DNA of 64,000 bases from Cinnamomum chago (Eukaryota > Streptophyta > Magnoliopsida > Laurales > Lauraceae): contig CP142451.1 in assembly GCA_038049695.1 (NCBI GenBank), positions 65,973,501 through 66,037,500 of the forward strand. The letters run 5' to 3'. The notes under the pieces were generated by a model. That model saw nothing but the letters and a program-made list of their open reading frames with translations, was not told where the DNA came from and ran no database searches. How positions within the stretch are numbered: the stretch's first letter is position 1; each line of letters opens with the position of its first letter. Shown in pieces: positions 617-61,641 of this stretch. The translations under genes and the position numbers were made by a program.

Positions 617-795
617 GGAGCAGAGTCTGTTATGTGTGATTTTATCATTTATCCTAGAACAGACTAAATTTTCAAAATTCTCCACTCACACCTACACTCC
701 TATGCTTGGTAAAAAGTTTAGTGTATGATCATAAGGGAATCACTTTTGATCACGTTTAGTGTATCTCTCTGGCTCGTTTCACGTTTTTGGCCCAG

Positions 796-833
796 GTCCG
801 ATCGATCAGCCTGACTAGACCGATCGATCGGAC
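796..833. repeat. palindrome pair, CCGATCGATCGG type
   Basis: GTCCGATCGATC at 796-807 and GACCGATCGATCGGAC at 818-833 are separated by about 10 bases and can pair with each other. The same core is clustered in the LTR of this element (2823-2903) and in an unrelated gypsy LTR (16486-16634). The 17-base word CCCAGGTCCGATCGATC at 791-807 is repeated exactly at 16486-16502. Confidence 0.85.
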
Positions 834-1252
834 ATCGTCTCAGTCGTTTTTAAACAGTTCAAACTGTTTTTTTTTTTTCATCTTCTTTTTCATTCCAGCC
901 CTAGAACCGATTTTCACCCTCACAATCAGAGGTTTTCCGCTGGGTTGATTGCTCTCTCTGAGGTATCTCTTCTTCTCCGTCTCTCTTTCTTTCATTATAT
1001 TTCCTTCCATTTGCTTGTCTTTGGTTTTGGTAAAAGTATTGGGTGATTGGATTTCATTGGCTTAGTTGTAGATGATTGAGAATGATATGTGTGTTGCCAC
1101 TGTTTTTCTAGTCTCTGTGTGAATGCACTCAGTGGGGACTGAACTTTTCATATTGTACATCCTTTATGGATGACCCATTTCTAAGTTGAAGGTTGGATTT
1201 GTTTATTTGTGTCATGCACACCAGGTGTTGGTTTTTTTTCCTCAAAAAAGAA

Positions 1253-2303
1253 ATGGCTCCAAAAGTTTCACAACCGCGCAAGAAAACATGCCATCGTGGT
1301 AGCTCCTCCTCTGCCCCTACTGTTGACGGTAATAGATTTCAAAGTTTGGTCAAAGAGAATTCTTTTCTGAGTGTATTTTCGAAGAAACAAGTCCTTGTCG
1401 AACGTCCCGTCCGTTTGGCAAAGATAGAAATTGATTTTAGTATGTGGCTACGTGAAAGGGAATGGGATTCCCTCTATGTCTGACCCCACAGCATATGGGT
1501 CGCTGGTTCAAGAATTCTACAATAATATACATGACATTGGAAAAGAATCCTTCAAATCATTTGTACGTGGGATAGTTATTGAAGTCAATGCAAATTTCAT
1601 AGGGCAATTCCTTCAAATTGATAGGAGTCTAGATGCTGTCTATCCGACTCCTGAGCCCGATTCTGATGACATGGAAGACCCCTTTGACAATACTGATTGG
1701 GATGAGGTGATCACCACTCTCACTAGTGGTCGTAAGCATGCATGGCCAGGGGGCATCTTGAAACAGAAATTCCTTACTCCTTCTTACCGGATGTTGAATC
1801 TTTTCGTTTGCTATAACCTTGAGCCTAAGGGGAGAACATCAGAAGTTATAATGGAGACTGGCTATCTTTTGTATCTGATTGGGACAGGGCAGCCTATTGA
1901 CATCCCTCTTACCATTTATAGGCACATGGTGGCAGCCCCTCTCGGTGCGTCGACTACTTCTCTACCATACGGAGCACTTGTCACTCGTATACTTTTCTCT
2001 AGAGGAGTAGCTGTTGGGCCACATGATTCCCTTGTGAAAGGGCGAGGCCCCATTACATACCACACCGTCAGTCTGTCGTCTGCTCATGTTGATGATAGTG
2101 GTGATGAAGCCCCAGTTCCAGATGAAGAAGTTTCTCCGGTTGATACGCAGTTTGAGTCTGCTGTGCCTTCATATCTTCAAGAATTTGAAAACCGCCTCCT
2201 GGATCAGTCTACACAGATTGAGCTACTTGAACATCGCATGGACTCACAATTTCAGGATGTTTTTTCAGATGAGGCAACTACAGATTGGCAGCAACCGGAT
2301 TGA
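1253..2303 (+). pseudogene. env-like ORF of Sirevirus element, frameshifted
   Basis: An ATG at 1253 opens a frame encoding a basic start (MAPKVSQPRKK) that runs to about 1482. The homologous protein then continues in another frame from about 1480 to a stop at 2301-2303. The second part has YGSLVQEFYNNI, SFVRGIVIEV, a long hydrophobic LFVCYNL to GYLLYLIGTGQPIDIPLTIY block, LPYGALVTRI, and an acidic, coiled-coil-like C-terminus. This pattern matches the plant proteins called putative plant transposon protein, which Sireviruses carry in the env-like position after pol. A single frameshift near 1475-1490 separates the halves. No clear signal peptide or transmembrane anchor is seen, so an envelope function is not supported by this copy. 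Confidence 0.7.
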
Positions 2304-2462
2304 GGAGAAGCTGGACTCTCTCCTTCATCGATTCCCTCCTCCTCAATAGACCTAAGCAATTATCCTTTTGTCCCCATCTCAAACTTTTATGCTATGTGTT
2401 TTTGCTGTTTTGGTCTCTTCATTCTACTCTTACTGTTTTTTTTACCTTGTCAATTTATGGCC

Positions 2463-2678
2463 AAAAAGGGGGAGACTTAGCTCAGTTACTTAGTTCATAT
2501 ATGTCTTTTTATCTTTTTATATATGTGTGCTTGATTTTCATATGATCATGATCTTTTGTCAAAGATTGTCGGTGACAGGAACTGCAGGTAGCAGCAATGG
2601 ATGATGGTTTTGTTTGGGTAGTTTCTGGGTAGAACCAATGTATTAGATGTTTTGTCCATGAATTGCCAAAGGGGGAGA
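2463..2678 (+). promoter_or_regulatory. duplicated polypurine tract before 3' LTR
   Basis: AAAAAGGGGGAGA at 2463-2475 and AAAGGGGGAGA at 2668-2678. The second lies directly before TTGTAAG, where the LTR begins, so it is the likely plus-strand primer. Repeated tracts in this position are a reported feature of Sireviruses. Confidence 0.75.
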
Positions 2679-2679
2679 T

Positions 2680-3720
2680 TGTAAGTATTTTTTGAGTGTT
2701 GGCTAATTCATGTGGGTGGACAAAACATAGGATTTCATGTATTTTACGAGTTTTTAGTTGGACCACTTCGTGTTGAAGAAGAACTTCAAATCAGTAGGAA
2801 ACAAGGATCTTTCAGAAAACAGACTGACCGATCGATCGGTCCAGAAAAGGCCTCAGTTAAAAGACAGACCTGTCGATCGGACCCTCAGTCCGATCGATCG
2901 GACAGCGGCGAGCCTCAGTTATTTTTTAGCAGTTTCTTTCTTTTGCCCTGTTTCCTAACCCTATTCAAACCCATTCTCTCCCATGCGATTTCATAAGCTT
3001 ATTTAAGGGTTTAATCCCTTCAGAAACTACCACCTCTCTCAGATCTAAACCCTAGATTACCCTTAGAGAGATTAACTTCCTCTAGAGAGTTCTTTTGATA
3101 GATTCATGTGCTGAAGCCTTGTTCTCTGGAGATTCCTCTTCCATGTTCCAATCAATTCGTCTTGCTTAAGGCATGGAGATTGAAGTACTAGAGAAGGTGA
3201 ACGGCGTGGTCGTCGGCAGGAATCACTTTGGTCCTTAGGTTGTGATCAACTGTAAAGGGGAGTGAGTTTCTCTTATAACCTTCGAGTTTTTAGTGCTTGA
3301 TCTTTCTGGACCGGTGCAAGGTCCCGTGGTTTTTTCCCTACCCAGGATTTTCCACGTAAAAAATCTTGTGTCCATTTTTTTGATTGGTTGCTTGATTAAC
3401 TTAGGTTTTTGTTTCCATATTCGTATCTGTGTTGGGATTTATTTTACTTTCTGTTAGGTTTGTGTTTTTCAACCCTCCAGGAATTCTCAATATGTGATGA
3501 TGTCAGACCCCATGTGTTGATGTCAAACCCAGTGAACAGCTGTTTTGTGTTAAAAATTGAAGTGGTGTGCTGCTGTTGTGAATTTCTAAATGTTGAGTAT
3601 ACTTTGGTTTTCATGGCTTTTGGCAAGTTCAATTTGATTATTCAGCCCTTATCAAGTTTTGTGGTTGAGTTTTCGTCATGATTACTTATCTGTGTATATT
3701 TGCTTGATGGACTCAAAACA
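2680..3720 (+). mobile_element. 3' LTR of Sirevirus-like element
   Basis: Begins TGTAAGTATTTTTTGAG right after the polypurine tract. It holds a palindrome cluster (2823-2903), a TATA-like box (TATTTAAGG near 3000), and a U5-like block CAAGGTCCCGTGGTTTTTTC followed by TTTTCCACGTAAAAAATCTTG near 3317-3367, a motif common in copia LTRs. The 3' end is not fixed because the 5' LTR is outside the window. Confidence 0.65.
2823..2903. repeat. palindrome cluster, CCGATCGATCGG type, in LTR
   Basis: Three units: GACCGATCGATCGGTCC near 2825-2841, GTCGATCGGACC near 2872-2883 (a half-decayed unit), and GTCCGATCGATCGGAC near 2888-2903. They lie about 100 bp upstream of the TATA-like box of this LTR. Confidence 0.85.
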
Positions 3721-4143: not shown

Positions 4144-4237
4144 CTATAAACACATTATGAAATAAGAGACCAGTTTCTAAAGAGTAGCTTTGCTAAAAGG
4201 AACAAAGAACATGAAAAATGCACTTTGAGACACTTAC

Positions 4238-7627: not shown

Positions 7628-7985
7628 GGGCCCACGATGTGAGGCCCCATCCCTTGTGGGGCCTCAATTTGAATTTGAATACTATTTAATAGAGTATATT
7701 AGCTAATTATACAAATTAATGGGTTAGTAAAGGTAGTTATGTGATTTCCTAAGTTTTAGTTAGATTAGTCTAGTTGTGTTAGTAATAGAGTTAATAGGGG
7801 TCTTTTGCAATTTCTAGGGTTTGTTAGTGAGATAGAGGCCCTAGCTAGATATTAGTATTTACCATAGGGGGGTATCCACTAAAGAATCTTCTAGAACCTT
7901 GCCCAAAGACCAAAATGCCCTCTACCCTAACCCTAATCCTATGCAACTAAAAATGGTATTTTAGTCCCTAGCCCTAAACCCAACT

Positions 7986-7993
7986 TATAAATA
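7986..7993 (+). promoter_or_regulatory. TATA box of 5' LTR
   Basis: TATAAATA, repeated at the matching place in the 3' LTR (19947-19954). A pyrimidine-rich stretch (CATCTTCCTCATTTCC) follows within about 45 bases, as is common at plant start sites. Confidence 0.55.
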
Positions 7994-8699
7994 CTACACA
8001 TTTCCCAAGTCATTCCTTAGCTACTGTTCATCTTCCTCATTTCCCCTCTCCTTTCTCTCTTTTTAGAAATCTAAGAAGAAGAAGAAGAAGACCCACTATC
8101 TCAGCCACCAACTTGTATCCCTTTCTCTATCTTGATCATCTCCTAATTCTCTTATAGCCAAGGTAAGAACTCTCTTGTAAATTCAATTTCATTAGAATCC
8201 CTGCTTTCTCTCTCTAGATTCTTCTTCCTTATTGAAGTTCTCTGTGGATGTGGGAATAGGAGTAGAGATTTCTTCTAGATCTGAGACTCTAGGCTGGTTT
8301 TGTGATTGAGAAGACCATAGGAGCTGGGATTTCATCTTATTGGCTTGGTTCTCTCTTTTCTCTCTCTACAATCCTTCATTTCAATCAAGGCAAGTGCAAT
8401 ATACTTATTTAGCATAGAATGTATGTTTCTATTTACATTGATTCTGCAATTTTCGATTCAGTTAATGTATATGTGTTAGATCTACCCTTGAGCTAAGTTT
8501 TGATGGATTTTGGGCATTGATGGATGAGATCTCTCATTTGGAAGATCAATGGCCCGTTTAGTGTTGGATGGTAGTACATTGAAGTGCTTTTATGTTTTAT
8601 ATTCATTTGGTGATGTTTGGGTGAGATTGGAGGAGTTTTAATAGGAAAATGGGTTGAAGGAGATGAAACCCTGAAACCTGGGTTTTCTGTAGGTTGCGT

Positions 8700-9212
8700 G
8701 TACTCGGTCGACGGAGCACACTGAAACTGAGAAAAAACAGGTCTCAGTTATTTTCCTGCAGGATTGACAGTCCAGTGTGCGCGGTCGACCGAGCTCTGCC
8801 TCGGGTCGACCGAGCACACTGAACTGAGAAAAATCCAACTCTCAGTTATTTTTCCTGCAGAACTGACAGTCTAGTGTGCGCGGTCGACCAAGCCATGTGC
8901 CAGGTCGACCGAGCACACTAATTTCTGCAGGAAATAATTGAGAATGGGATTTTTACCTCAGACCCAGATTTGTGTTTGTGCAGTCGACCTGGCCCTGTTC
9001 CAGGTCGACCGGACACAAAGGAATTTGGAATTTGGACTGAGAGCTGGGACATCCATTTCACACAGGGTTTCAGTATGCGCGGTCGACCGCTCAGGCCAGG
9101 AGGTGGTCGGTCGACCGAGCACACTGCACACAGGGTTGACCTGGGGGTCAACATCCTGACAATCCAGTGTACTTGGTCGACCGAGCCCTATGCCAGGTCG
9201 ACCGAGGACACT
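8700..9212. repeat. palindrome cassettes, CGGTCGACCG type, in 5' LTR
   Basis: About six cassettes at roughly 85-100 bp spacing (near 8700, 8776, 8875, 8978, 9077 and 9167). A full cassette has GGTCGACC twice, about 14 bp apart, enclosed by outer arms GTGTGCGC and GAGCACAC, so the whole 45-bp unit can fold on itself. Between cassettes the text is ordinary AT-richer LTR sequence with repeated phrases such as CTCAGTTATTTTTCCTGCAG. Confidence 0.9.
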
Positions 9213-10455
9213 GAATACAATGATTTTCCAGTTTTCACATTCTGAGGTTGTGTTTGTTTGTGAGGCCCATTGACCATCCAAATGAACTTCTATTGATGTG
9301 CCAAGCCCGAGTTAATGGTGTGGCTCAACCCTGACTCGTGGGGACCACCAAGTAGGGTTTTGGTGGTATAATCTACGATGATTCGATCTTTAAACGTTGT
9401 TGATGATGCCCGTAACATTAGGAGCACCTAACACAATATCCTTTGGCATCTGAGATTCCATTTAGAGATCAAATTACCTGAGATGGACCTGGACTTGAAT
9501 GTGGTCCATTACCTAGGTTGGATTATTGATTTTTCCCTATTGATTCTCATACCTGAAGTTCATACTTTACTTATCTTATTTCTGTCACTCTTATGTCTTT
9601 ACTATAGCTGATAACTGTTAATTAAATGGAAATGGATGACTTGAACCTAGGATATCTTAGAAGTGACCCGATGGTGTGATTGAGAGAACACGGACCCGTG
9701 TCTGTGGCTAGGCGGGCCTTATTGTAGCCTAAGTTTGGATATGTGTACCCTTAGATTGGAGAGGTGGTTTATATTGGGATTATAACTCATGGTAGATGAG
9801 AATGAACTGTTTATCAGTGGAAATGGACTTGTTACCTCATTTGGACTGTTTTAGAAAAGGTCATGTGTTTGATGGGCCTTGGTATGGATCCAACGAGTGG
9901 GCTTGGACTTGGATTGTGATCCATGGATTGATTTGATATTGGAACCTTTTAAAGACATTGTTAGGGCCTTGTTCGCGCTAGGCAAAGCCTAGACAGACAC
10001 AGACCTTTAGAGTTTTCTCGAGTTGGCATAGACATTCACTTAGTTGATTTAAGCTCAGCCTTTGGACTGATCATCACTGGTAGGAGCTATTTATGAGTGT
10101 TGAGTGAGCTATCATGATGAGCTATGTTTTAGACGGACAGTGTGATACCGAATCTAGTCTCCCTAAGTGATGAGTGTGGTGAGACTGTTGAGTGATTTGC
10201 GGGGTTAGTTATCCCTAGCACTGGTGAGATTCCCCACCGCGACTGTGTTCAGTATGGGAGGGCCGCGACATAATATCCCGCGGTATCCAGCTCGTGTGAA
10301 TGTGTCATATTGTATTATACTAGATGCTATATTTGTCCTGATTCTATATGTTTATCTTGCTCAACTGCCTAGATCATGTATCTTGATACTCTTTAACTAT
10401 GTACCTGTCTTTACTCTTTTGATATATATGTCGTATGTTACTTGTATACTGTGAC

Positions 10456-10494
10456 TTGCCAGATCTTTAGATCTAACCCATTTTGGTGCTTAGG
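10456..10494 (+). repeat. conserved LTR hairpin block
   Basis: TTGCCAGATCTTTAGATCTA followed by ACCCATTTTGGTGCTTAGGT. The arms AGATC and GATCT pair around TTTA. The same block with a different stem (CAGAC and GTCTG) occurs in other gypsy LTRs at 18412, 26904 and 40545. Confidence 0.7.
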
Positions 10495-10953
10495 TCTTGA
10501 CCTCGAGTACGCGGACAATGCGCTTGCGCTCGTAGAGGCGCCCATAGCTGGAGATTACGGTTGGGGACCGGCTGACCTAGATGTCGAGCCGGAGGTTGGA
10601 GAGCCAACACATGGGCTTTGAGTGGTTATCTTTGTTTGGGTTTTTGAGAGGTTTTTGTAGTGAGCTGGGTAGTTGTCAAATATGTAACTAACTTTTGTTC
10701 TTATCAATTGATACATTTAAACTGGACTATGGTTCCGCTCATATTTGATATATCATGATACCTATTGCTTCCGTTTCACTTCATATGCTTCTGTAATTTA
10801 ACCGTTGATATTATGATGTTCAAAAGTTTTCAAATTGGACCTCACTGCGGACCTACGATCTTGGAAGTTCTCGAATTTTTCGGGAAGTAGCGCGCCAACT
10901 TCGGATATTCTGACGACTTTCTCGGTATCCGGAATTGGGGTGTTACAATTTTA

Positions 10954-11117: not shown

Positions 11118-12592
11118 ATGTCTGGAGGTGAGGCACCACCTGAGGCACTAGCGGTCGACGATCAGTCTGGTCACGAGCATCGCTTTGAGAGGTTTCTACG
11201 AGCCTTCCTTGTCGCGCAAGAGGCCCAAGCGACTGCACATCAGCAACAGACAGACGATTTTGCGCAGTTTCAGGCGCAGGTCTTAGAGGTGATCGAGAGG
11301 GTGGCCCCACCAGCCCCAGTGGATGTACCTGTTCGAGAGGCAGACCCGAACGTTATATTTGAGAGGTTTCTCAAGAGGGGACCGCCAGAGTTTACCGACA
11401 CAGATGACCCAATGGTTGCGGACGACTGGATTGTCCGTATGGAGAAGATCTTCAGGGTCTTCGAATGTTCTGGACGCCAGAGGGTGCAGCTGGCAGCTTA
11501 TATGTTTCGTGGTGTGGCTGAGGACTGGTGGAGGATCATGTAGCAACCTTACGAGGCGATAGGAGACGAGGTGGCATGGACTGCTTTCAAGACAGACTTC
11601 CTTAGGAAGTTTATTCCCGCTCATGTCAGAGAGCGTAAGCTCAGGGAGTTCCAGACTCTTGTCCAGGGCAGTATGACAGTCTATAAGTACGAGCTCTGTT
11701 TCACTCAGCTGTCCCGTTTCGCAGAGGCATTGCTTACGTCAGAGGCCGAGAGGGTCCGGCGGTTTGTTGATGGATTGAGGGAGGAGATCCAGCCGGCTAT
11801 GACTTGTATTGAGCTACCTACCTACGAGGAGGCCTTGCAGAGAGCTTATTGGGCAGAGGAGTAACTTCAACGGCTGGAGGTCACTCGTCAGCAGAAACGG
11901 CTCCGGATTGCCCCAATCAGGCAGCAACCCGTGATTCCGCAGCAACAGCCATTCCAGAGGCAGAGGCCACCAGGCCAGGTGAAGCGGTATCATCATCATC
12001 AGCAGCAGTACCGCGGGCCTAGAGTATGCTTCGACTGTGGTGAGCAGGGGCACATATCTAGGCACTGCCCACTCCGCGAGCAGCAGCCCCCGATGCTTCA
12101 ACTACCAGCACCTCCGGGAGCCCCAGCTCCAGCGGCTCAGCCAGCGCGTCAGGTTGCACTAGCACCTCAGCCGTAGTACCGTGCAGAACAGCAGGCACAC
12201 GCACCTCAGCAGCCCCGAGGACAGCAGTACCATCGAGGACGTCATCAGAGGCACCATGGCCAACAACACCAGCAGCAGAGGCCCCAGGCTGTGGGTCGAG
12301 CTTTCGCACTCACTCACGAGGACGCAGAGGCTGCAGGCAACGTGGTGGAAGGTACTCTCTTTATCAGTGATCATCTTGCTAGGGTATTGCTTGATCCAGG
12401 AGCGACACATTCGTATGTGTCATCAGCATTTGCTTTAGTCCTTGGTGGGGTAGGAAAGGCAATGCCTTGTACATTAGTTGTGTCCACACCAATAGGTAGG
12501 AGTGTGGTGTGTCAGACTTACCACCCAAGGTGCCGAGTGCAGATTGGGGAGTACTTTTTGCTTGCAGATCCGATCGTGCCTTCGACGTCATT
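11118..12592 (+). pseudogene. gag and protease region of chromovirus-like element
   Basis: ATG at 11118 opens a Ty3/gypsy gag: capsid signature DPNVIFERFLKRGPPEF, then WIVRMEKIFRVFECSGRQRV, GVAEDWWRIM, FKTDFLRKFIPAHVRERKLR and FVDGLREEIQPAM. A zinc knuckle CFDCGEQGHISRHC (C-x2-C-x4-H-x4-C) sits at about 12028-12069, followed by a Gln/Pro-rich stretch. The protease has LLDPGATHSYVSSAFA with the catalytic Asp. In-frame stops at 11541, 11862 and 12174 each look like a glutamine codon changed by C-to-T. The frame is lost near 12575-12592, where the RT frame takes over. Alone this copy could not make a full polyprotein. Confidence 0.88.
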
Positions 12593-15110
12593 TTGGGGAT
12601 GGATTGGTTGGCTAGATACCGAGCAGTGATGGATTGCTTCGAGAAGACAGTCCGACTCTCCATCGACGGATCCGATGACACGATCAAGTTTATAAGCGAG
12701 AGGAGATCGCCTAGCACTCGGATGATTTCGGCACTGAAGGCTGAAAGATTGATGAGATCTGGTTGCGAAGGCTACATCACGTTCATATCAGAGGATAAGC
12801 CGACCAGCGCAGTAGAGGAGATCCCAGTTGTTTGCGAGTTCCCCGATGTGTTTCCCGACGAGATTCCAAGATTACCACCTGTTAGAGAGATCGACTTCAC
12901 CATTGACCTTGCACCAGGCACAACACCGATTTCCAGAGCTCCTTATCGCATGGCTCCGGCAGAGCTACGAGAGTTGAAGACCCAGTTGGAGGAATTGTTA
13001 GACAAAGGCTTCATCAGGCCGAGCATGTCACTGTGGGGTGCACTAGTGCTCTTTGCGAAGAAGAAGGATGGATCGATGATGATGTGCATTAACTATCGAC
13101 AACTAAACCAGGTAACAGTGAAGAATAAGTATCCTCTTCCTCGGATCGACGAGCTCTTCGACCAGCTACAGGGTGCACAGTACTTTTCGAAGATAGATTT
13201 GAAATCGGGATACCATCAGTTGCGAGTCAGAGAGCAGGATGTGCAGAAGACAGCGTTCTGTACACGCTATGGCCACTACGAGTTCCTTGTGATGCCGTTC
13301 GGATTGATGAATGCACCAGCAGTGTTCATGTCCCTGATGAATAAGATCTTCGCCCCGTACCTCGATAGCTTCACAGTTGTGTTCATCGACGATGTGTTGG
13401 TATACTCCAAGTCCAAAGAGAAGCACGAGCAGCATTTGAGGACGTCTCTACAGTTGTTACGCGACAACCAGTTGTACGCGAAGCTTAGCAAGTGCGAGTT
13501 TTGGCTGGAACAAGTAGTTTTCCTCGGGCTTATCATCTCCAAGAACGAACTAGCTGTGGACCCAACGAAGATAGAAGCAGTGATGAATTGGGAGAGACCG
13601 AAGAATGCCACGGAGATTCTGAGTTTTCTCGGCTTAGTAGGCTACTATCGTAGATTCGTTAAGAGCTTCTCCATGATTTCAGCCCCGTTGACCAAGCTGA
13701 CGCGGAAAGATGTACCGTTTGTTTGGACTGATGCTTGCGAGAACAACTTCCAGGAACTGAAGGAGAGACTGACGACAACACCAATCTTGTCTTTACCTAT
13801 TGGTAATGGTGGATTCGTAGTCTTCACCGACGCTTCAGGGACCGGTCTCGGTTGTGTTTTGATGCAGGAAGGGAAAGTCATTGCCTATGGATCACGCCAG
13901 CTAAAAGAGCATGAGAATAAGTACGCTACACACGACTTGAAGCTAGCAGCGGTCGTTTTTGCATTGAAGTTATGGAGACACTATCTCTATGGGGAGAAAC
14001 TCGAAGTGCATTTAGATCATCGCAGCTTGCAGTACTTGTTCACTCAAAACGACCTCAACAACCGGCAGAGGAGATGGATGGAGTACATCAAGGATTACGA
14101 CTTTGCTATCAAATACCATCCGGGTAAGGTGAATGTCGTAGCAGATGCTTTGAGCAGGAAGACCACCCTCATCAGTTTTCTAGCAGCAGAGGGTGTGTGG
14201 ACCGATGCCTTTAGTAGCTTAGACGTCCAGTTTCAACCGCTCAGTGGAAGAGTCATGCTTGCTACCATGTCCGCATGGGAACCAGAGTTACTAGGAAAGG
14301 TCAAGGACAGTCAACGCAACGATCCAAAGCTTGTTAGAGTGATCGAGCAGATTGACCAGAGGCCAAAGTTCAGATTGATTGGTGGAGTGCTCTACTATCA
14401 GGACAAATTGTGCATGCCGGATGTTCAGGAGCTGAAGGATGAGATCCTAGCAGATGCACATCATAGCAGATATTCGATTCACCCCGGCAGCATCAAGATG
14501 TACTAGAACCTGAGGAGCTACTAATGGTGGAACAACATGAAGAAAGAGATCGCACGTTATGTCTCCAGGTGCTTGACGTGTCAGCAGATCAAGACCGAAA
14601 ATCAGAAGCCGCCAGGACTACTTCACCAGCTCGACATACCCCAGTGGAAGTGGGAACATATTACCATGGACTTCATCGCAAGACTCCCAGCCACCAGGAG
14701 ACGCCAAGACGGCATTTGGGTGATCGTGGATCGACCGACTAAGTCATCTCACTTCTTACCAGTTTCGATGAAGGCAGGACTCGACGTCCTTGCTAAGCTG
14801 TATATGGACATGATTATTTCATTGCACGGGGTTCCAGCTTCGATTGTTTCGGATAGAGACCCGCATTTTACTTCCCATTTCTGGGAGAGTCTATAACAGG
14901 CTTTGGGTATCAAGTTGAGTTTCAGCACTACTTATCATCCTCAGACAGATGGGCAGACCGAGCGCACCAACCAGACACTAGAGGACATGTTGAGAGCTTT
15001 TGTCTTGGACTACAAAGAGAACTGGGAAGATTCCTTGCCGCTTTGCGAGTATGCCTACAACAATAGTTACCATTCGAGCATCAAGATGGCACTGTTCGAG
15101 GCTCTGTACG
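12593..15110 (+). pseudogene. pol of chromovirus-like element: RT, RNase H, integrase (first part)
   Basis: Continues in a second frame: [16 protein letters not shown], then RT with [31 protein letters not shown] and the catalytic [10 protein letters not shown], and connection [16 protein letters not shown]. RNase H has [13 protein letters not shown], but the usual second acidic residue (motif THDLELAA) is Lys at 13940-13942. Integrase has HH-CC zinc-finger remnants (CLTCQQIK), [20 protein letters not shown] and [15 protein letters not shown], so D, D and E are present. Stops interrupt at 14503, about 14521 and 14894. The frame runs to 15110, where a solo LTR sits within ALYGRR. Confidence 0.9.
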
Positions 15111-15621
15111 TGTGAGAACCCGACCCCTAATCTCTTGGATTAGTGTTGTTTTATTTGTCGATTAGTTCTTTTAGTGGGATTAGTAGTTGTTGGGTTGATT
15201 TTGTGAGCTAGAATGGGTTTTCTTCTAGTTTTGGGCTTTTGAGTGCTTTGGTAGCCTGTGGGGCCCTTTGGGGGTTCCCTTTTTCGGCTTTGCTTTTTCT
15301 TGTGAGATTTTCCCGATTTGTTTCATATCGTGTTTTTGGCCCGTTGCATTCATCTTGAGGAATCCTACAACTTTCATGTTGATCTCGTATCCATTTGAGA
15401 AACCAAAACCCGATTTCTTGGCCTTGAGGGCAAAACAGTCTTTTCACACCAAATCTGTACCCAAAACTCGATATTCTCGAAATCCGTGAAACATACACTT
15501 TTTGGAAACTAGATATTTCGACGATCATTTCTTCCTTCTTCGTCGAATCCATCCGAGGTCCCGAATTAGATGATTTCAGCCACCCAAGTCCCTTAAGTTG
15601 TGGGACCCATTCTCACTTGCT

Positions 15622-15629
15622 TATAAAAG
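15622..15629 (+). promoter_or_regulatory. TATA box of nested gypsy solo LTR
   Basis: TATAAAAG in CTTATAAAAGGAGACCC, about 510 bp into the LTR and followed by a pyrimidine-rich stretch. The palindrome cluster of this LTR lies about 860 bp downstream. Confidence 0.5.
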
Positions 15630-16485
15630 GAGACCCTTCTCCTTCATTCACTCAATTCACCATTGTCCCAGCTGAGCCTAGGGTTTCCCATTGTGCAACT
15701 TCTTTTTCTTCTTGCTTCTTCATCTCCAAGCCACACAAATCTTGCACCAAACTAGAAATGGAGATCACCATTCTCTTCCCCACCTTGCAAGCTTTTCATG
15801 GATGCCATTAGAAGAGAAATCCACCAACATTGAGACCTTCCTTGAGCTTGTTCTTCTCATTTGAAAGTCATCCAAGTAAGTTCCCTCCTCAAATCTTCTA
15901 GATATGTGTTCTTCTTGCCATTGAGAAGCTCCATTTTCATTATTTGGAGTTCTTTCTTCTTCTTCATTGTTTAACCCATTTTTGGGTTGTTTTGGGGGTT
16001 TTTGTAGAGATTGTGGATCTTGAGCTTGAGAGGTGATTATGAGCTTGATTTTCTTGATTAGAGTCAAAGGCAAGTGGTTGATTGGATCGTTTTGATTATT
16101 AACATGTTTTGGTGAAAATCTTGATTTCATTGATGGTTTTGGTAATTTTAATAGTTGTTTTTTATATGATAAATATTGATTATGAGATGTGCTTATTGAT
16201 GAGTTATTCTTTCTTGTTAAGCTCTTGAAAGTGCATGCATCCTATTGTCAAGAATTTCAAATGGTTTCACATGAATGAGTTTTCTCCACCTTGAGTTTTA
16301 TTGTGGATGGAATAGATGGAAAGGATGGAAATGGAGGAACTTGAAATGAGGAGCTCTTTAGCTCATTTTAATGTCTTGGAAACATGTGTTTAAGCCCCCT
16401 TGTTTATAGTTTTATGTGATTGATTATATGTTGGAAGGAAAGGAAAGAAAAAGAGAAAAATCAGAGTTCCCGGACCTGCACTGCG

Positions 16486-16634
16486 CCCAGGTCCGATCGA
16501 TCGGACGTTCTGGCCGATCGATCGGACTGACTTTTAACAGTAAGCATTTTTCAGCCGATCGATCGACCGATCGATCGGACCCTGTGCAGAAATTTTGGCC
16601 GATCGATCGGACCTTTGGTCCGATCGATCGGAGG
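16486..16634. repeat. palindrome cluster, CCGATCGATCGG type, in gypsy solo LTR
   Basis: Six units: GTCCGATCGATCGGAC (16491), GGCCGATCGATCGGAC (about 16512), two fused units CCGATCGATCGACCGATCGA (from 16556), GGCCGATCGATCGGAC (about 16598) and GTCCGATCGATCGGAG (about 16618). Spacing is irregular (about 14-45 bp). The core is identical to that of the copia element at 796-833 and 2823-2903. Confidence 0.9.
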
Positions 16635-17541
16635 ACTCAGTTTGAGTCCGGTGAATTTTGAGATTTTTAATTTTCCTTGGTTTTAGGTGGGACCCTTACC
16701 CTTTTTGGACTGTTTGGCCTATGAGTGAGGATGTCTTGAGCCGACACTCCTCACGGTGGGTTCGGTGACATCGAGGTTAATCCATTTCAATCTTGAACGG
16801 GATGGAACGACGCGATATCTTCTTTATATCTAAACACAAGTCTATTTCCTTGGTTATCGCTAATTCTATTCCTTTCGAGGACTGAGTAGGTTGCTCGATG
16901 TTTCCGGATTAATGTCATGCCTAGGATGGACCGTTTATAATCTTGATTCTTGCTATTGTAACATCTAGTACTACCCATAAGCTCATGTTAAGATTTTAAA
17001 ATAGTAAAAGTGCATAAGGAGCCCGGAATGTCTTCTAACTCAAGGAGTACCAAGTAATTGTCATAATCGACATACGGGACCCCTATTCACTTAAATAGAT
17101 CTTGAAACCGATATGTTTACCCAAAATTGTTATAGTTCATTGTTTCACCTCTTTTCCCGAGACTTGCATTACATGACTTGTTTTCCCGAAAGCATTGAAG
17201 TTACTCTAGTAACAGTTACTTGTCCCGAAGTGCATTGCACCACATGATATATTAGTGTGCCCTTGAGCACCCCCGTCTTGCCCGACTGATTATATATTTA
17301 TACTTGATTTACTTGCTTTGTCTCGATTGTATTTGACCTATGAGTCGGCACCACTAAGCTTGGATAACCCTGTTGGTCTGATCAACCGACTTGGAGATCC
17401 CCCTCTTGTCCCGCCAGCTGCAGCTTGGATCCCGCTACCCGGTTATTACCGTGGTCTTGTCCCGATACCGCAGATTGCTACTGTGGTCCCCGATGCCCGG
17501 CTCGCTACCGTGGTCATGTATAGTATATGTATATGCATTCA

Positions 17542-17659
17542 TGAGATCCCCTGTTTCTCCTCACCTCGAGTGACTGAGATCAGGGCCTAGTATATTTATA
17601 TGTATTGATATGAGATCCCCTGTTTCTCCTCACCTCGAGTGACTGAGATCAGGGCCTAG
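17542..17659 (+). repeat. tandem duplication, 69-bp period
   Basis: TGAGATCCCCTGTTTCTCCT starts at 17542 and 17611 and both copies extend through GACTGAGATCAGGGCCTAG. The intervening stretch is AT-rich. It lies inside the nested gypsy solo LTR. Confidence 0.85.
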
Positions 17660-17875
17660 TTCTTGCTCTATCGCTTTAGTGATAGAGGACTTAGCTTCTT
17701 GTGGTTGCCATCTTGCCAGTTTCCGATTCCTTGGATACCCGACATGTTTTATATTGCTTTTATGTTTTCTGATAAATGATTCGTTTCCTTTATGAAAGTT
17801 GTTATTTAAACAAGTGTTAATATTCTCCAATGTAAATTCAGTTATTATTATATTGCCTTCTGTTCTTTGTACCCG

Positions 17876-18300
17876 CACGTGTTTTAAATAAACGCCGGTT
17901 GGGCGAATAACCATGCTCTTACCTATGTTTCACACGATCAATGATTTTACTTGATTTGTACGATTGCCCATGTTTTAAAGGAATACCGGAATTGTTAAAT
18001 ATCCGTGCTTTGTTTTAAATGACACTTGTTTTGCTAGATTCCTATGGTTATACCTGTTTCAAATGATTACCCGAGTTATTTAATATCCATGCTTAGAAAC
18101 ATGTTTTAAATGAACCTTAGCTTCGCCAGATTTCTTGGTTACACATTGTTTTAAATGAACGTTTGTTTGTCAAACTTCTATATTTATACATGTTTTAGAC
18201 GAATACCCGATTGTCAAATATCTATGATTATAGATGATGTAAATGAATACATGTTTTATTAGATATTCATGTTTTACCCGTACTTGAAATGAATACAAGT
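17876..18300 (+). repeat. degenerate repeats of about 55-65 bp
   Basis: Recurring phrase ATGTTTTAAATGAATACCCG followed by a run like TTGTTAAATATCCATG, seen about seven times with strong divergence (near 17878, 17971, 18022, 18110, 18150, 18190 and 18250). It lies inside the nested gypsy solo LTR upstream of the conserved hairpin. Confidence 0.6.
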
Positions 18301-18411
18301 TTTCCCCGAGATTCCCGACTTTGCACCCGTTTAATTATATGCAGTACTTGATCGATTAGCATGATTTATTATATGTTTTATTCTTTAGTATAATTGTGAT
18401 CTTTTCATCCA

Positions 18412-18436
18412 CCTGCCAGACCGTCGTGTCTGACCC
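18412..18436 (+). repeat. conserved LTR hairpin block
   Basis: CCTGCCAGACCGTCGTGTCT then GACCC. Arms CAGAC and GTCTG pair around CGTCGT. A TTTTGGTACTCAGGT phrase follows, as in the other copies. Confidence 0.7.
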
Positions 18437-21150: not shown

Positions 21151-21169
21151 GCCGTTGGGCACTTTTTGC

Positions 21170-21177
21170 TATAAATA
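21170..21177 (+). promoter_or_regulatory. TATA box of copia solo LTR
   Basis: TATAAATA in TTTTTGCTATAAATATGAG, about 20-165 bp downstream of two palindrome cassettes, which therefore sit where promoter-proximal elements would be. Confidence 0.6.
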
Positions 21178-53765: not shown

Positions 53766-54036
53766 TGAAAGTCCACGAGGATCCTAACCCTAGAGGGGGG
53801 GGGGGTGAATAAGGTGAGCTACAACTAATGACTAATTATGACCAATTTTAATTTCTTAAACTAAACTAGTCACAAGTGGTGATTATAAGAAAAAATGCGG
53901 AAGCTCAAATAAACAATCACCACAAAAGCATGCACCACAACACAATATTTATAGTGGTTCGGCCAACGTGCCTACATCCACTACCGGCTTGTGTCTCCAA
54001 CACCCCACCGGATTCCACTAAGTATGCTTTTTACTA

Positions 54037-54190
54037 GGCTAAGCAATAACCCTTACAATGTGCTTTTCTAGGCTAAGCAATAACCTTACAAGATGCTTTT
54101 CAAAGGCTAAGCAATAACCTTACAAGATGTTTTTCAAAGGCTAAGCAATAACCTTACAAGTTGCTTTTCTTAGGCTTAGCAATAACCTTT
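54037..54190 (-). repeat. 34-bp tandem array in LTR
   Basis: GGCTAAGCAATAAC (plus strand) starts at 54037, 54071, 54105, 54139 and, with one change, 54173: an exact 34-bp period, five units. The array is repeated 5949 bp further on (59986-60139). Diverged relatives lie in the copia solo LTR at 22461-22594. Confidence 0.92.
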
Positions 54191-55025
54191 ACAAATATAG
54201 TTTTCTCAAAGAAAGTGTCTTAACAAAAGAACACTCTAAGAGATTACAATTTAAGCTCAATGGAATTGCCTCTTGAATAGGCTAATATGAAAGTGAAAAC
54301 TAAACTCACACAAACACTCTATGAATGCAAAGATGTATGCTTATGAGGTGTGTGTGTGATGGCTTCAATCAAGTTAAAAAAGAAAGCTTAATCAAATATA
54401 TTGCTTAAAGCAATTCAAAGTTTAAAGCTCATAAAAGATTGATTGAAGTCTTATGCAAATCACATGTATGAAATTCAACTTGTTTATGACATGAAAATCA
54501 AGGACTAACAAGTTGTATGAAAATGGCTAATTTAGAACATGTGATGCATGTGCATGTTGTTTTCAAAACCAAATTAATTTTACTAATGTTTAAATGAATG
54601 AAAACAACAAGCAATGTTTCAACCAAGTGATATAATCATGCAATACAAGAAATCCAAGATTTATGACTAAACATGATTAAGAAAGTTTAAAACAAAACTT
54701 GGTTTGAAAACAAAGTGATGAATCCAATTCTTGAATATCAAAGATGAAGGGAAGAATGGATTCAACACATCATTGTTATCATGCTTGAAATCAATTTCCA
54801 AAGTTTCAAACAAAGCACATAACAAATGATTAAATCAAAGTAAAACTTACTTGGAGATTTAACTTAGTTGATCCAAGCTTAAGCTTTACTTAATGACCCT
54901 TTAGCCTCTCTTAGTTCCTCCCCTTTGTCTTGTCTCAAAGCTCCTCAAAGAAGGCTTAAAAATCTCCAACCAAAGACAAAGGAAAGAGCTCATTTAAATA
55001 CCAAAAACTGCCCAACGGCTAGTTT

Positions 55026-55210
55026 GGCCGGTTGACCGGCCATGACAGGCCGGTAGACCGGCCAAGCACAACGGTCATAAAAATAGCCGTTGTGTTTTGG
55101 GTCATCCTGCACTATGGCCGGTTAACCGGGCTAACATGGCCGGTTAACCGGCTACACTGCGGGTTGACCACCCCGGTTAACCCCATGGTTAACCCCGCAG
55201 CACCAAAATT
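55026..55210. repeat. palindrome cassettes, CCGGTTAACCGG type, in LTR of gag-only element
   Basis: GGCCGGTTGACCGGCC and GGCCGGTAGACCGGCC (55026-55063) six bases apart, then GGCCGGTTAACCGGGC and GGCCGGTTAACCGGCT (about 55117-55153), then weaker CCCCGGTTAACCCC and ATGGTTAACCCC. An inverted pair ACAACGG ... CCGTTGTG lies between (about 55069-55097). On the minus strand they are just upstream of the TATA-like box. Repeated at 60975-61159. Confidence 0.9.
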
Positions 55211-55692
55211 CCCAAAAAATGCATTTTTCACAGTTTTGCTTGGGGGAACTTTTTGGCCACTAAATCAAGCTTGGAAAACATGTTTTAAAGATTCTAAAGG
55301 TTTTTAAAACATGACATAAAAAGCCTAAAAAGTTTCAAAACTTTTAAAACAAAGGCTTGCTTGATTTCTTGAAAACTCTTTTCAAATGAAATTGCATACA
55401 CAAAAGATTCTTTTTGTGATGAATGTATGCAAAACTCAAACCTAAATTCACAAGATGATTTTCCAAATATAATGCACAATGAATTAGGTTTTCAAAAGAG
55501 TTTGGGTTTCAAAACTAATGCATCCAAGTTTAAAACCAAAACATGCATAAAACAAAAGCTTTTCCAAATCTTAAAAGCTATGCATGAATGAAACTAAATT
55601 TCAAGGTTTTCTAAAACAATGCAAGTGTGAGAATTCAAATGATGCTAAAGTGCAAATGCATCCATCAAATTGCAAATACAAAATCCCTAACA

Positions 55693-58066: not shown

Positions 58067-59599
58067 CTAAGGTTTGTCTAGGTAAATGACTTTGGGAATC
58101 CACCTAAGGTCTTGAGAGGGTTGAACTTTGAGGTCTAATTTGGAATTCTCACCAACTATAGGAGATTTAACTTGATAAATTTTCAATTTGAACTTATCAC
58201 CATGATATTTAGATTTTACTAAATTTGGTTTAGAATGGTGATTAGTCTTTTGATGTTGGTGAGTTTTCTTCTTAGGGGATTGATTCATTTTTCTTTTCTT
58301 CTTATTTTCTCCCTTTCTTTGACTTTTGAAATTTAGATTTAACTTTGTAATTTTCTTCAAAAGTTCTTTCATGTCTTGACTTAAGGGAGGAAGGTTGAGA
58401 AGCTTTTTGTTAATAGATTCTTTTAAACTTGGTTTGACTTGTTTAACCTTTTTAGAATCTATTTTTGGAGACTCCTTGTTAATTGGTTTAACTTGTTTAA
58501 GCTTTATGGAGTCTTCCTTTGTTTTTAGTGTCTTACCCTTCAAGTTTGATTTTACTTTCTTGAGTTCAAGGATGGGTTTAGACACATAGCTTCTTTTCCT
58601 TAGTTTGCACTCAAACCTAAAGTGTCCTTCATTGCCACAATAATCACATTTTGTTTTGGGCAAGGGAGAAAGAGTGCTAGAGAAAGAGGACTCACCTTTC
58701 ACAAATGTGTTGGTGAATTTAGGGTCATAAGACATATTCCTATTAAATCCAATACCCGTCCTATCTCCATGAGATTTACCCAATTTAAATAATTTTTCAA
58801 GTTTATCTTCACTTTGGGTAAACTTGCACTCATACTTTTGTTTATTGTTTTCAAGTTGAGTGACTTTGGTTATAAGGATTGAATTTTCATTTTTAACTTT
58901 AGAAAGTTCATTTTCAATTTCCTTATATTTGATTAGCTCTTCATTGGCAAGTTTTACTTCATTAACAACTTTAGATCCAAGTTCTTTTGTTTTTAACTTA
59001 CTTTTGATCAACTTGGCTTCTAAAATGTCAAAGTCTTCATCTTGTCTTTTAATTGTATCTCTTAGGTTTAAATTTTCATTTTTAATCTCATCACAATTTA
59101 TCTTAATCTCATTTAATTCATCTTGAGCATTAGATAAATTTTCCTTAGAGATAGTCAATTTAGATTCAAGATTGTTAAAGTCTTTATCTTGCCTTTGTAA
59201 TTGATCTCTTAGTTTTAGATTTTCTTTATTAAGATGATCATAACCTATCTTTAATTCTTTTAGTTCATCTTGAGTGTTAGATAGATTATTTAAAGAGATC
59301 ATGAACTTAGAGTCTAGACATTTTATTACTTCTTCTTTCTCTCTAAGTTCATCTTTTGAAGATGCTAGCTCTTTGTTTAGGTTTTTAGATTCTTCCCTTA
59401 AACTTTTGTTTTTCTTTTCAAGCTTTAAGGATATTTCATATAATTCTTCAAAAGCTTGTTGAAGGTCTTCTTCATTATATTCATTTTCTTCTTCTTTTGG
59501 ATCAAATTGATTTTCATTAGTTTGAGAGTTTGAAACTCCAAAAGAAGGAAGAGTGAGGGGTCTAGAAGAATCTACAAAGTCTAGCCTAGTGAAGTCCAT
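58067..59599 (-). CDS. gag-type protein of gag-only Sirevirus derivative
   Basis: 510 codons, uninterrupted. ATG at 59599 follows the PBS by about 100 bp. Residues 1-40 are a short acidic leader; 45-265 are Lys/Glu-rich and look coiled-coil, with an internal repeat of 49 residues (starts near 95, 144 and 193: LDSKFMIS, LESKLTIS, LEAKLIKS). A zinc knuckle CDYCGNEGHFRFEC is at 318-331. The tail is Lys-rich and ends DLRWIPKVIYLDKP, like the WVPK phrase that closes Sirevirus gag before protease. The usual N-terminal copia gag domain is missing, so this is the C-terminal half of gag as a separate protein. It may bind the element RNA or co-assemble with particles of a full helper element; that is inference. 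Confidence 0.85.
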   Translation of the reverse strand: MDFTRLDFVDSSRPLTLPSFGVSNSQTNENQFDPKEEENEYNEEDLQQAFEELYEISLKLEKKNKSLREESKNLNKELASSKDELREKEEVIKCLDSKFMISLNNLSNTQDELKELKIGYDHLNKENLKLRDQLQRQDKDFNNLESKLTISKENLSNAQDELNEIKINCDEIKNENLNLRDTIKRQDEDFDILEAKLIKSKLKTKELGSKVVNEVKLANEELIKYKEIENELSKVKNENSILITKVTQLENNKQKYECKFTQSEDKLEKLFKLGKSHGDRTGIGFNRNMSYDPKFTNTFVKGESSFSSTLSPLPKTKCDYCGNEGHFRFECKLRKRSYVSKPILELKKVKSNLKGKTLKTKEDSIKLKQVKPINKESPKIDSKKVKQVKPSLKESINKKLLNLPPLSQDMKELLKKITKLNLNFKSQRKGENKKKRKMNQSPKKKTHQHQKTNHHSKPNLVKSKYHGDKFKLKIYQVKSPIVGENSKLDLKVQPSQDLRWIPKVIYLDKP

Positions 59600-59699
59600 T
59601 TAAATGATTTTCAAGTAATCACAACTCTAGGGTTTTAACTCTAGGTTTTTACACCTAATCAAGAGTTCCAAACACTTGATCCTAAGGGATAGAGCACTT

Positions 59700-59712
59700 G
59701 GCTCTGATACCA
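59700..59712 (-). promoter_or_regulatory. primer binding site of gag-only element
   Basis: Minus strand TGGTATCAGAGCC, two bases after the LTR end (TTTCA|AT), matching the complement of initiator tRNA-Met. Confidence 0.92.
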
Positions 59713-59714
59713 AT

Positions 59715-61641
59715 TGAAAGTCCACGAGGATCCTAACCCTAGAGGGGGGGGGGGTGAATAGGGTGAGCTACAACTAATGACTAATTATGACCAATTTTAA
59801 TTTCTTAAACTAAACTAGTCACAAGTGGTGATTATAAGAAAAAATGCGGAAGCTCAAATAAACAATCACCACAAAAGCATGCACCACAACACAATATTTA
59901 TAGTGGTTCGGCCAACGTGCCTACATCCACTACCGGCTTGTGTCTCCAACACCCCACCGGATTCCACTAAGTATGCTTTTTACTAGGCTAAGCAATAACC
60001 CTTACAATGTGCTTTTCTAGGCTAAGCAATAACCTTACAAGATGCTTTTCAAAGGCTAAGCAATAACCTTACAAGATGTTTTTCAAAGGCTAAGCAATAA
60101 CCTTACAAGTTGCTTTTCTTAGGCTTAGCAATAACCTTTACAAATATAGTTTTCTCAAAGAAAGTGTCTTAACAAAAGAACACTCTAAGAGATTACAATT
60201 TAAGCTCAATGGAATTGCCTCTTGAATAGGCTAATATGAAAGTGAAAACTAAACTCACACAAACACTCTATGAATGCAAAGATGTATGCTTATGAGGTGT
60301 GTGTGTGATGGCTTCAATCAAGTTAAAAAAGAAAGCTTAATCAAATATATTGCTTAAAGCAATTCAAAGTTTAAAGCTCATAAAAGATTGATTGAAGTCT
60401 TATGCAAATCACATGTATGAAATTCAACTTGTTTATGACATGAAAATCAAGGACTAACAAGTTGTATGAAAATGGCTAATTTAGAACATGTGATGCATGT
60501 GCATGTTGTTTTCAAAACCAAATTAATTTTACTAATGTTTAAATGAATGAAAACAACAAGCAATGTTTCAACCAAGTGATATAATCATGCAATACAAGAA
60601 ATCCAAGATTTATGACTAAACATGATTAAGAAAGTTTAAAACAAAACTTGGTTTGAAAACAAAGTGATGAATCCAATTCTTGAATATCAAAGATGAAGGG
60701 AAGAATGGATTCAACACATCATTGTTATCATGCTTGAAATCAATTTCCAAAGTTTCAAACAAAGCACATAACAAATGATTAAATCAAAGTAAAACTTACT
60801 TGGAGATTTAACTTAGTTGATCCAAGCTTAAGCTTTACTTAATGACCCTTTAGCCTCTCTTAGTTCCTCCCCTTTGTCTTGTCTCAAAGCTCCTCAAAGA
60901 AGGCTTAAAAATCTCCAACCAAAGACAAAGGAAAGAGCTCATTTAAATACCAAAAACTGCCCAACGGCTAGTTTGGCCGGTTGACCGGCCATGACAGGCC
61001 GGTAGACCGGCCAAGCACAACGGTCATAAAAATAGCCGTTGTGTTTTGGGTCATCCTGCACTATGGCCGGTTAACCGGGCTAACATGGCCGGTTAACCGG
61101 CTACACTGCGGGTTGACCACCCCGGTTAACCCCATGGTTAACCCCGCAGCACCAAAATTCCCAAAAAATGCATTTTTCACAGTTTTGCTTGGGGGAACTT
61201 TTTGGCCACTAAATCAAGCTTGGAAAACATGTTTTAAAGATTCTAAAGGTTTTTAAAACATGACATAAAAAGCCTAAAAAGTTTCAAAACTTTTAAAACA
61301 AAGGCTTGCTTGATTTCTTGAAAACTCTTTTCAAATGAAATTGCATACACAAAAGATTCTTTTTGTGATGAATGTATGCAAAACTCAAACCTAAATTCAC
61401 AAGATGATTTTCCAAATATAATGCACAATGAATTAGGTTTTCAAAAGAGTTTGGGTTTCAAAACTAATGCATCCAAGTTTAAAACCAAAACATGCATAAA
61501 ACAAAAGCTTTTCCAAATCTTAAAAGCTATGCATGAATGAAACTAAATTTCAAGGTTTTCTAAAACAATGCAAGTGTGAGAATTCAAATGATGCTAAAGT
61601 GCAAATGCATCCATCAAATTGCAAATACAAAATCCCTAACA
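59715..61641 (-). mobile_element. shared LTR of the tandem gag-only array
   Basis: Repeats 53766-55692 at a constant offset of 5949 with no indel. It serves as 5' LTR of the complete copy and as 3' LTR of the next unit, since a polypurine tract (about 61642-61655) borders it on the other side. Confidence 0.88.

Follow-up and report, generated by a model that had tools for sequence, protein, structure and literature searches.

The regulatory parts of long terminal repeat (LTR) retrotransposons are usually assumed to evolve within a family. Among the closest described systems is the repeated motif (RM) of the Sireviruses, whose palindromes lie in the LTR just before the TATA box and, as additional copies, ahead of the env gene (Bousios 2010, PMC2829016); in the Vitis Sirevirus the RM is CGGTCGACCG (PMC2829016). 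In maize, the Sirevirus palindrome doubles as the top motif of Helitrons (PMC10760457), and 'plastic CpG islands' have been described in the LTRs of Del gypsy elements, with the eudicot Del elements being devoid of the island (Cruz et al. 2014, PMC4029996). Here we describe a palindrome module in a 64,000-nucleotide stretch of the 1.06-Gb Cinnamomum chago genome (C1:65973501-66037500, henceforth the window; further loci are coded by L-numbers). It consists of palindromes paired at a fixed spacing, is present in large numbers across the genome, and occurs in both the copia and the gypsy superfamilies with shared spacers and arms, in arrays that diverge far beyond the surrounding LTRs. With modest confidence, we interpret these as versions of one module, a predicted dock for two host protein dimers, that has probably been passed among Sirevirus, classic copia and gypsy elements.

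Paired palindromes in the window and across the genome

The window was scanned for three cores in classes of zero to three mismatches, with Markov-resampled sequence serving as the null. This recovered 14, 9, 16 and 25 core sites at 0, 1, 2 and 3 mismatches, respectively, against 0, 0, 0.95 and 16.8 in the resampled sequence. Thus, 39 sites lie within two mismatches of a core (second LTR copies counted) as opposed to approximately one upon resampling, and the palindrome clusters that the original prediction had reported from the LTRs of this region are indeed present. The arrays are:

798..831, plus strand: ATCGAT-core pair of copia A (Sirevirus A), centres 803.5 and 825.5, 22 bp apart, between pol and the env-like open reading frame (ORF), outside the LTR
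2828..2901, plus strand: ATCGAT-core array of the copia A LTR, centres 2833.5, 2874.5 and 2895.5, gaps 41 and 21
8704..9205, plus strand: gypsy A array of 11 GTCGAC-core sites, with four pairs at 21 bp and one at 28 bp, the pair units being 94-100 bp apart
16493..16631, plus strand: gypsy B array of 6 ATCGAT-core sites, gaps 21, 41, 12, 32 and 21
21014..21144, plus strand: copia B array, two pairs of GTCGAC-core sites, each 22 bp apart, the first pair with outer arms CAGTGT/ACACTG
22888..23467, plus strand: array of the gypsy A 3' LTR, 12 sites with at most 2 mismatches in the inner 10 bp
55028..55184, minus strand: copia C array, pairs GTTGAC/GTAGAC and GTTAAC/GTTAAC, both 22 bp apart, and a degenerate site
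60977..61133, minus strand: second copy of the copia C array

The sites come as pairs of two 10-12-bp palindromes, the centres of which are 20-23 bp, i.e. two helical turns, apart. Intervals of 21 or 22 bp account for 12 of the 25 between neighbouring sites in the window, while random placement yields a mean of 1.2 and reached 12 in none of 20,000 trials; the remaining short intervals are 12, 28, 32, 33 and 41 bp. This pairing at 21-22 bp was absent from the original prediction and is added here. The earlier proposal that the core is uniform within an LTR does not hold strictly, as the gag-only copia C LTR has GTTGAC and GTAGAC beside GTTAAC, but cores do differ between LTRs.

Across the genome, pairs were counted as two perfect palindromes with a gap of 6-20 bp, which allows centres 16-30 bp apart. 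There are 15,513 such pairs of CGGTCGACCG (GTCGAC core) and 4,628 of CGATCGATCG (ATCGAT core), against a chance expectation from composition of less than 0.004 genome-wide for either core; a control palindrome, CGGACGTCCG, which has the composition of CGGTCGACCG and is the core of the published Sirevirus motif Usier, forms no pair anywhere in the genome. Among 50 places listed for each core, all within the first 30 Mb of C1, the centres are 20-23 bp apart in 49 for GTCGAC (35 at 22 bp, 9 at 20, 3 at 23 and 2 at 21, the one remaining place being at 30) and in all 50 for ATCGAT (29 at 21 bp, 14 at 22 and 7 at 20). In a less biased sample of 20 stretches of 10 kb chosen by position (both LTRs of L031 counted), 9 of the 15 gaps up to 60 bp were 20-22 bp, and 30 of the 36 perfect CG-N6-CG palindromes had an N-TCGA-N' middle. 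In the locus set used for nearest-relative comparisons (see below) 101 of 153 gaps up to 60 bp were 20-23 bp, a histogram biased towards pairs by the 14 loci that had been selected for GTCGAC pairs. Longer words predicted to be common to both superfamilies were also recovered: the 17-mer CCCAGGTCCGATCGATC, shared by copia A and the gypsy B solo LTR, has 2,094 genome copies (about 0.03 expected from base composition; reversed control 0), and TTCCAGGTCGACCGG was found in both gypsy A and the copia B solo LTR.

On one strand of C1:36919069-36998338 the 17-mer CCCAGGTCCGATCGATC occurs 13 times; 11 of the 12 steps measure 6,027 or 6,039 bp, suggesting that an entire retrotransposon-derived unit is repeated in tandem. 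Separately, nine viral contigs from IMG/VR (L001-L009), perhaps of unrelated phages, carry CGGTCGACCG pairs with spacings of 19-22 bp, where 19-24 bp was permitted; the viral contigs searched included none with an ATCGAT pair, and no relative of the gypsy reverse transcriptase (RT).

Host elements and the distribution of core types

The elements carrying these arrays in the window are defined by the following features, given with target site duplications (TSDs) and polypurine tracts (PPTs) where present:

1428..2300, plus strand: env-like ORF of copia A, stop to stop, Pfam PF20167 Transposase_32, E 4e-25
2670..2681, plus strand: Sirevirus PPT AGGGGGAG followed by AT and then the TG of the LTR, in copia A (junction rule from PMC2829016)
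2680..3489, plus strand: 3' LTR of copia A, the 5' LTR being upstream in L040 (4228-4997) and ~96% identical
7638..10947, plus strand: 5' LTR of gypsy A, TGTGAGG..GTTACA, TATA box at 7986, flanks CACGA and CACAA alike in 4 of 5 positions
12500..14503, plus strand: protease-RT-RNase H frame of gypsy A with RVT_1, RT_RNaseH and RVP_2, the gypsy-type RT and RNase H matching PF00078, PF17917 and PF17919, and with gypsy pol relatives
15111..18942, plus strand: gypsy B solo LTR, 3.8 kb, in the integrase region of gypsy A, TATA box at 15622, TSD GTACG (15106-15110, 18943-18947)
19600..24873, plus strand: 3' LTR of gypsy A, interrupted by the copia B solo LTR
20634..22846, plus strand: copia B solo LTR (Sirevirus-type), 2.2 kb, TGTTA..TTACA, TSD ATGAA, TATA box at 21170
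53766..55692, minus strand: LTR of copia C (gag-only, Sirevirus-type), the junction on the plus strand being CAATCTCCCCCT
58070..59599, minus strand: gag-like ORF of copia C, Pfam zf-CCHC_3, E 5e-4, under its gathering cutoff

Gypsy A has the RVT_1 and RT_RNaseH domains, and the RVT_2 domain of copia A was found in L040, just upstream of the window. Gypsy B is devoid of a coding part, and is labelled gypsy by its LTR ends and a 168-bp, 77% identical relative beside gypsy pol in L023. Gypsy A and B may belong to the Tekay/Del chromoviruses, a label taken from features of their LTRs and primer binding site (PBS); a Pfam chromodomain was not matched at 19273-19584. Copia A shows the AGGGGGAG-AT|TG junction, copia RT and env-like gene by which Sireviruses are recognized, but the Sirevirus PBS TATCAGAGC is represented after its 5' LTR in L040 by a one-base variant, TATTAGAGC. 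Since copia A and copia C end in the AGGGGGAG-AT|TG junction and the copia B LTR is related to that of copia C (71-82% over aligned stretches), all three LTRs are classed as Sirevirus-type. Beyond the window, gypsy X (L011-L015, L017) is a gypsy element, with the C-terminal end of gypsy pol directly 5' of the LTR in L011, and L018 is a classic, non-Sirevirus copia (Retrotran_gag_2) in which an array of three sites lies after the primer site and before gag.

All copia A sites had been ascribed to its LTR. This is correct for those at 2823-2903, but those at 796-833 lie between pol and the env-like ORF, in a region with a copy in L010 (88% over 1,485 bp). The 5' LTR array of this element (L040 4365-4405) is ~42 bp, or two lattice steps, shorter than the 3' array (2828-2901), as if this length had been lost through recombination between palindromes.

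The GTCGAC core is hosted by gypsy A, the Sirevirus B/C-type LTRs and a classic copia, and the ATCGAT core by gypsy B, gypsy X and Sirevirus A. The gypsy B-related LTRs by themselves span every core type found, namely ATCGAT (window, L032), CTCGAG (L018, L019, L024), the GYTARC types (L018, L019, L033) and GTCGAC (L029, L048, L052), the assignment of L048 and L052 being short or weak, on only 209-213 bp. Eight loci with the 17-mer comprise six gypsy X, one Sirevirus A (on the env side) and one without assignment, and 14 GTCGAC-pair loci picked by spacing class comprise six gypsy-A-like, three Sirevirus and two gypsy-B-like hosts, with three left without assignment. Core type does not track superfamily and the shared words are far above chance, these being the two points at which the original prediction could have failed.

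Certain other features of the window were also noted. Copia C is laid out in the order LTR-interior-LTR-interior, with 53766-58051 and 59715-64000 being 99.98% identical over 4,286 bp, and a relative in L031 (185-10000) has the same order; this gag-only, non-autonomous Sirevirus family may spread or persist as tandem units with a common LTR. At 29320-30440 there are long minisatellite arrays, the AT-rich repeats of which are 20-21 bp in length, and beside Sirevirus A, on the minus strand at 3775-5179, there are frames that resemble plant potassium channel exons by eye.

Similarity beyond the core

Shared flanks had been proposed as a check on the relationship between the arrays, and both spacers and arms are indeed shared across superfamilies. 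The LTR array of Sirevirus A aligns inclusive of its spacers with gypsy X over 85 columns in L012 (z 8.2) and 63 columns in L017 (z 7.5), with the orientation reversed with respect to the LTR, and its pre-env array aligns with that of L012 in the same orientation (z 6.2). These scores are against a null of shuffled spacers; of the 141 cross-class pairs tested, one in four exceeded a z of 2.8. The spacer of the Sirevirus A LTR array contains at 2852-2867 a non-palindromic 16-mer, CTCAGTTAAAAGACAG, which is found exactly in gypsy L017, though not in L012, and which has 60 copies in the genome (0.8 expected; reversed control 0). One unit of the leader array in the classic copia L018 matches gypsy A in 37 of 39 columns. 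The LTR of L049 is 75-81% identical over longer matches to the gypsy LTRs of L054 and L043, and it includes a Sirevirus-like stretch of ~65 bp; a 55-bp unit therein is 91% identical to a Sirevirus LTR unit of L036, the next best being the unassigned L051 (89% over 53 bp); it also matches copia B (85% over 66 bp) and the gypsy units of L041, L044, L046 and L054 (83-85% over 47-54 bp).

Flanks were further compared by a joint column permutation, since tandem units are not independent and shuffling each flank separately overstates significance. This test singled out two cross-superfamily pairs, copia A with gypsy B (z 5.2) and gypsy A with copia B (z 3.7); eight other pairs had P of at least 0.03 (copia B with copia C 0.03, copia A with gypsy A 0.05). 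Among GTCGAC units the mean non-core similarity was 14.1 of 34 positions across superfamilies and 15.5 within them, against 10.8 upon shuffling.

The arrays also differ more than the LTRs in which they are embedded. Between copia C and its relative L031 identity is 57.9% in the array, 76.9% in the LTR up to 400 bp from the array and 95.5% beyond this (blastn gave 86% and 91% for the array-adjoining parts), with L031 possessing four GTCGAC sites where copia C has GTTAAC-type sites. Similarly, gypsy B and its CTCGAG/GYTARC relatives are 50-55% identical in the arrays, 55-59% within 400 bp and 70-81% in the rest, whereas gypsy B and L032, which have the same core, are alike throughout at 86%, 88% and 89%, respectively. 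That GTTAAC is a mere CpG decay product of GTCGAC was considered, but is countered by the changed spacers of L031 and by the near-identity of the two copia C copies, from which it follows that the GTTAAC core belongs to a recently duplicated family. Cassette exchange is supported by the spacer sequence held in common outside the core and, to a lesser extent, by the arrays differing far more than the flanking LTR.

Competing explanations and comparison with known systems

The original prediction, which had offered exchange or convergence, is partly supported: the shared spacers favour exchange, though not a rampant one. Several observations weigh against exchange. Of 69 GTCGAC units (40 gypsy, 29 copia) 57 are nearest to a unit of their own superfamily, with 12 crossing over against 35.8 under shuffled host labels; likewise, 9 of 11 ATCGAT units are nearest to their own superfamily and 2 cross against 5.9 (P 0.07). 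Hence, the modules are mainly inherited with the host lineage, and transfer is occasional at most. (Left out of these counts are the second LTR copies of the window and of L031, the repeated loci L038 5001 and L039 4956, a single chance pair within gypsy A and all arrays for which no host was assigned; L042 is retained by its distant gypsy X match but has no host class among the 14 loci, and L045 and L051 are kept in the unit set but excluded from the superfamily test.) Nulls made by shuffling spacers carry no selection, part of the similarity in the arms may reflect selection on a long binding site, and the contrast between copia C and L031 is graded, such that fast local divergence may explain part of it. 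A first alternative is convergence only, whereby the LTRs of each superfamily would have acquired long composite binding sites for one common host factor on their own, without exchange of DNA. The clustering of units by superfamily accords with it, as do the arm CAGTGT-N-C-Y, common to gypsy A and Sirevirus units and at the same offset before the core in both, and the superfamily-specific position of arrays relative to the TATA box. It accounts poorly for the non-palindromic 16-mer between the sites and the 63-85 aligned columns of the Sirevirus A and gypsy X arrays, or for a unit within the gypsy LTR of L049 that is nearer to a Sirevirus unit than to four gypsy units. As the sole explanation we regard convergence as rather unlikely, but it probably adds to the arm similarity. 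Given the heavy nesting of elements here, the shared words could also be remnants of inserted elements or coincidences of GC-rich palindromes. This is extremely improbable, and is refuted for the bulk of the arrays: the pair counts exceed the chance expectation by far and the control palindrome has none, blastn reveals no similarity of the Sirevirus A LTR backbone to gypsy LTRs, and the Sirevirus-like stretch in L049 is confined to about 65 bp within a gypsy LTR.

With respect to function, the pairs might alternatively fold as hairpins in the transcript, serving as a source of small RNAs or as a guide to packaging. This follows a proposal for the maize Sireviruses, the palindrome regions of which gather small RNAs and are predicted to fold (PMC10760457, citing Bousios 2016). 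In line with this, the arrays of the gypsies and the classic copia are in the presumed transcribed leader, and outer arms match slightly better within a unit (5.91 of 12) than between units of the same host (5.42) or with another host (4.61). A hairpin does not need centres 20-23 bp apart, and the partner site shows no compensation: among 128 departures from the core in 194 sites, compensating changes across a pair number 16, against 16.0 expected from shuffled partners (P 0.59). Since the changes are uncompensated across the pair, docking of a dimeric protein is preferred over an RNA hairpin, which we consider improbable; as judged from these substitutions, a stem joining the two sites is unlikely to be under strong selection. 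The outermost base takes 80 of the 128 departures and the inner 8 bp are nearly fixed, a figure that is only indicative as the sites were preselected at no more than 2 mismatches. Docking in turn has to contend with the identical change being seen in both sites of a pair 38 times against 16.4 expected, whereby the pairs are partly copies of each other, and with only 10 of the 128 changes restoring dyad symmetry within a site (a count without control).

The preferred reading, a docking module that has been exchanged, would operate as follows. Two dimers of a host DNA-binding protein would dock cooperatively on one helix face of the paired palindromes, most likely activating transcription of the LTR and env as an enhancer. 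The two-turn spacing, the dyad symmetry, the occurrence in both orientations and the varied placement fit cooperative dimer binding at such an enhancer-like element. The copia B array ends 26 bp ahead of the TATA box TATAAATA at 21170, one copia A pair lies upstream of env, those of gypsy A and B start 0.7-0.9 kb downstream of the TATA box (the gypsy A array extending over 0.7-1.2 kb) and that of L018 is in the leader; an enhancer tolerant of orientation and position is a better fit to this than a promoter box, albeit that the placement of the gypsy arrays downstream of the TATA box is unusual for an enhancer. The core variants GTCGAC, ATCGAT, CTCGAG and GTTAAC/GCTAGC would be read by related proteins of differing specificity, and exchange might, as a guess, have proceeded by template switching between co-packaged RNAs or by gene conversion at the palindromes. 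Palindromic DNA is reportedly discriminated by dimers of LBD proteins, which also bind GCGGCG (PMC10118128), and we would guess at LBD/LOB proteins as candidate binders, with a dimer on palindromic half-sites of CGG type; a literature search on LBD together with DNA affinity purification sequencing (DAP-seq) found nothing.

Other potential sites accompany the palindromes. Between the palindrome pairs of the Sirevirus B/C LTRs is an inverted pair, AACGGTCA..TGACCGTT (21081-21102, 55070-55091 and L040 ~726-747; in copia C the second half is GCCGTT), which resembles a mitosis-specific MYB site. Words of the form CAGTTA/TAACTG, presumably MYB-like, recur between palindrome units in both superfamilies (e.g. 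8740-8760, 2852-2867 and 2911-2925). A further palindrome, CGGAGCTCCG, lies on one side of the array at a distance of ~0.44-0.52 kb in the gypsy X LTRs (L011-L015, L017), and also ~0.6 kb from the arrays in L048 and L052.

A more speculative extension, which we hold to be possible and put forward tentatively, is that of an interchangeable control module with a constant two-turn scaffold and swappable cores (G, A or C before TCGA, or TTAA/CTAG centres), each read by its own member of a host family of dimeric regulators, in which trading across superfamilies would switch the regulator. If so, LTR families would compete for or escape the same host factors, like swapping keys. More generally, two superfamilies carry the same predicted control module, the two cores that were counted giving about 20,000 perfect pairs, and it is apparently traded between them; such trading, if true, would help explain why the regulatory regions of plant LTRs change faster than their surroundings. 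With regard to the activation of Sireviruses and of large gypsy elements in plants, the paired palindrome with its fixed two-turn spacing offers a testable object with several specificities. Moreover, as potential binding sites spread over the genome, the modules could influence genes in their vicinity.

That clustered palindromes are known from Sirevirus LTRs, as the original prediction had stated, is confirmed for the copia half, which is the published RM (Bousios 2010, PMC2829016): copia A, B and C match its pattern, and the Vitis RM CGGTCGACCG is the commonest core here. The position just upstream of the TATA box is seen in copia B, in contrast to gypsy A and B, and the extra copies upstream of env are seen in copia A, where the pair at 798-831 precedes the ORF at 1428-2300. 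Set beside the published figure of at least 8 copies per element, the gypsy A LTR has 11 and copia A has 5 in the window (3 in the LTR, 2 pre-env), while the LTRs of copia B and copia C have 4 and 5, respectively (up to 3 mismatches, overlapping matches omitted). Copia A and C are Sireviruses by their PPT junction, as expected of RM hosts, whereas gypsy A (by RVT_1), gypsy X (by its gypsy pol) and L018 (by Retrotran_gag_2) are not. Exchange of the RM between elements was not encountered in the accessible text of that paper. Of the CGG-CCG signature of the RM, CGGTCGACCG and CGGTTAACCG are typical and CGATCGATCG is not; the latter and CGCTCGAGCG are outside the 13 RMs of that paper, although Tnd-1 (ACAATCGATTGT), the published exception to the signature, has an ATCGAT centre.

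The palindromes of maize Sireviruses likewise cluster in the cis-regulatory part of the LTR, but have another core, CACCGGAC-N3-GTCCGGTG, and are interpreted in terms of small RNAs, the accessible text making no mention of gypsy LTRs (PMC10760457). In the Del LTRs the GC-rich part varies in length and sequence beyond the rest, as do the arrays here; the accessible text of that paper is without the string 'palindrom' and cites the Sirevirus paper for CpG-rich regions without comparing motifs (PMC4029996). The U3 region of Tnt1 is again reminiscent of these arrays in that a regulatory LTR module evolves separately from the coding region, albeit confined to one copia group and, in the accessible text, without exchange with gypsy (PMC1838419). 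In the literature searched, no report of palindrome module sharing between copia and gypsy was found, and as a whole word CGGTCGACCG was matched, among 5.39 million papers, only in PMC2829016. Thus, in comparison with these systems the Sirevirus part of the module is already known, and the RM is termed Sirevirus-specific within Ty1/copia; what is new is that Ty3/gypsy LTRs, and likewise the leader of a copia outside the Sireviruses, carry this module, together with the two-turn pair geometry, which was not encountered in the accessible literature on the RM.

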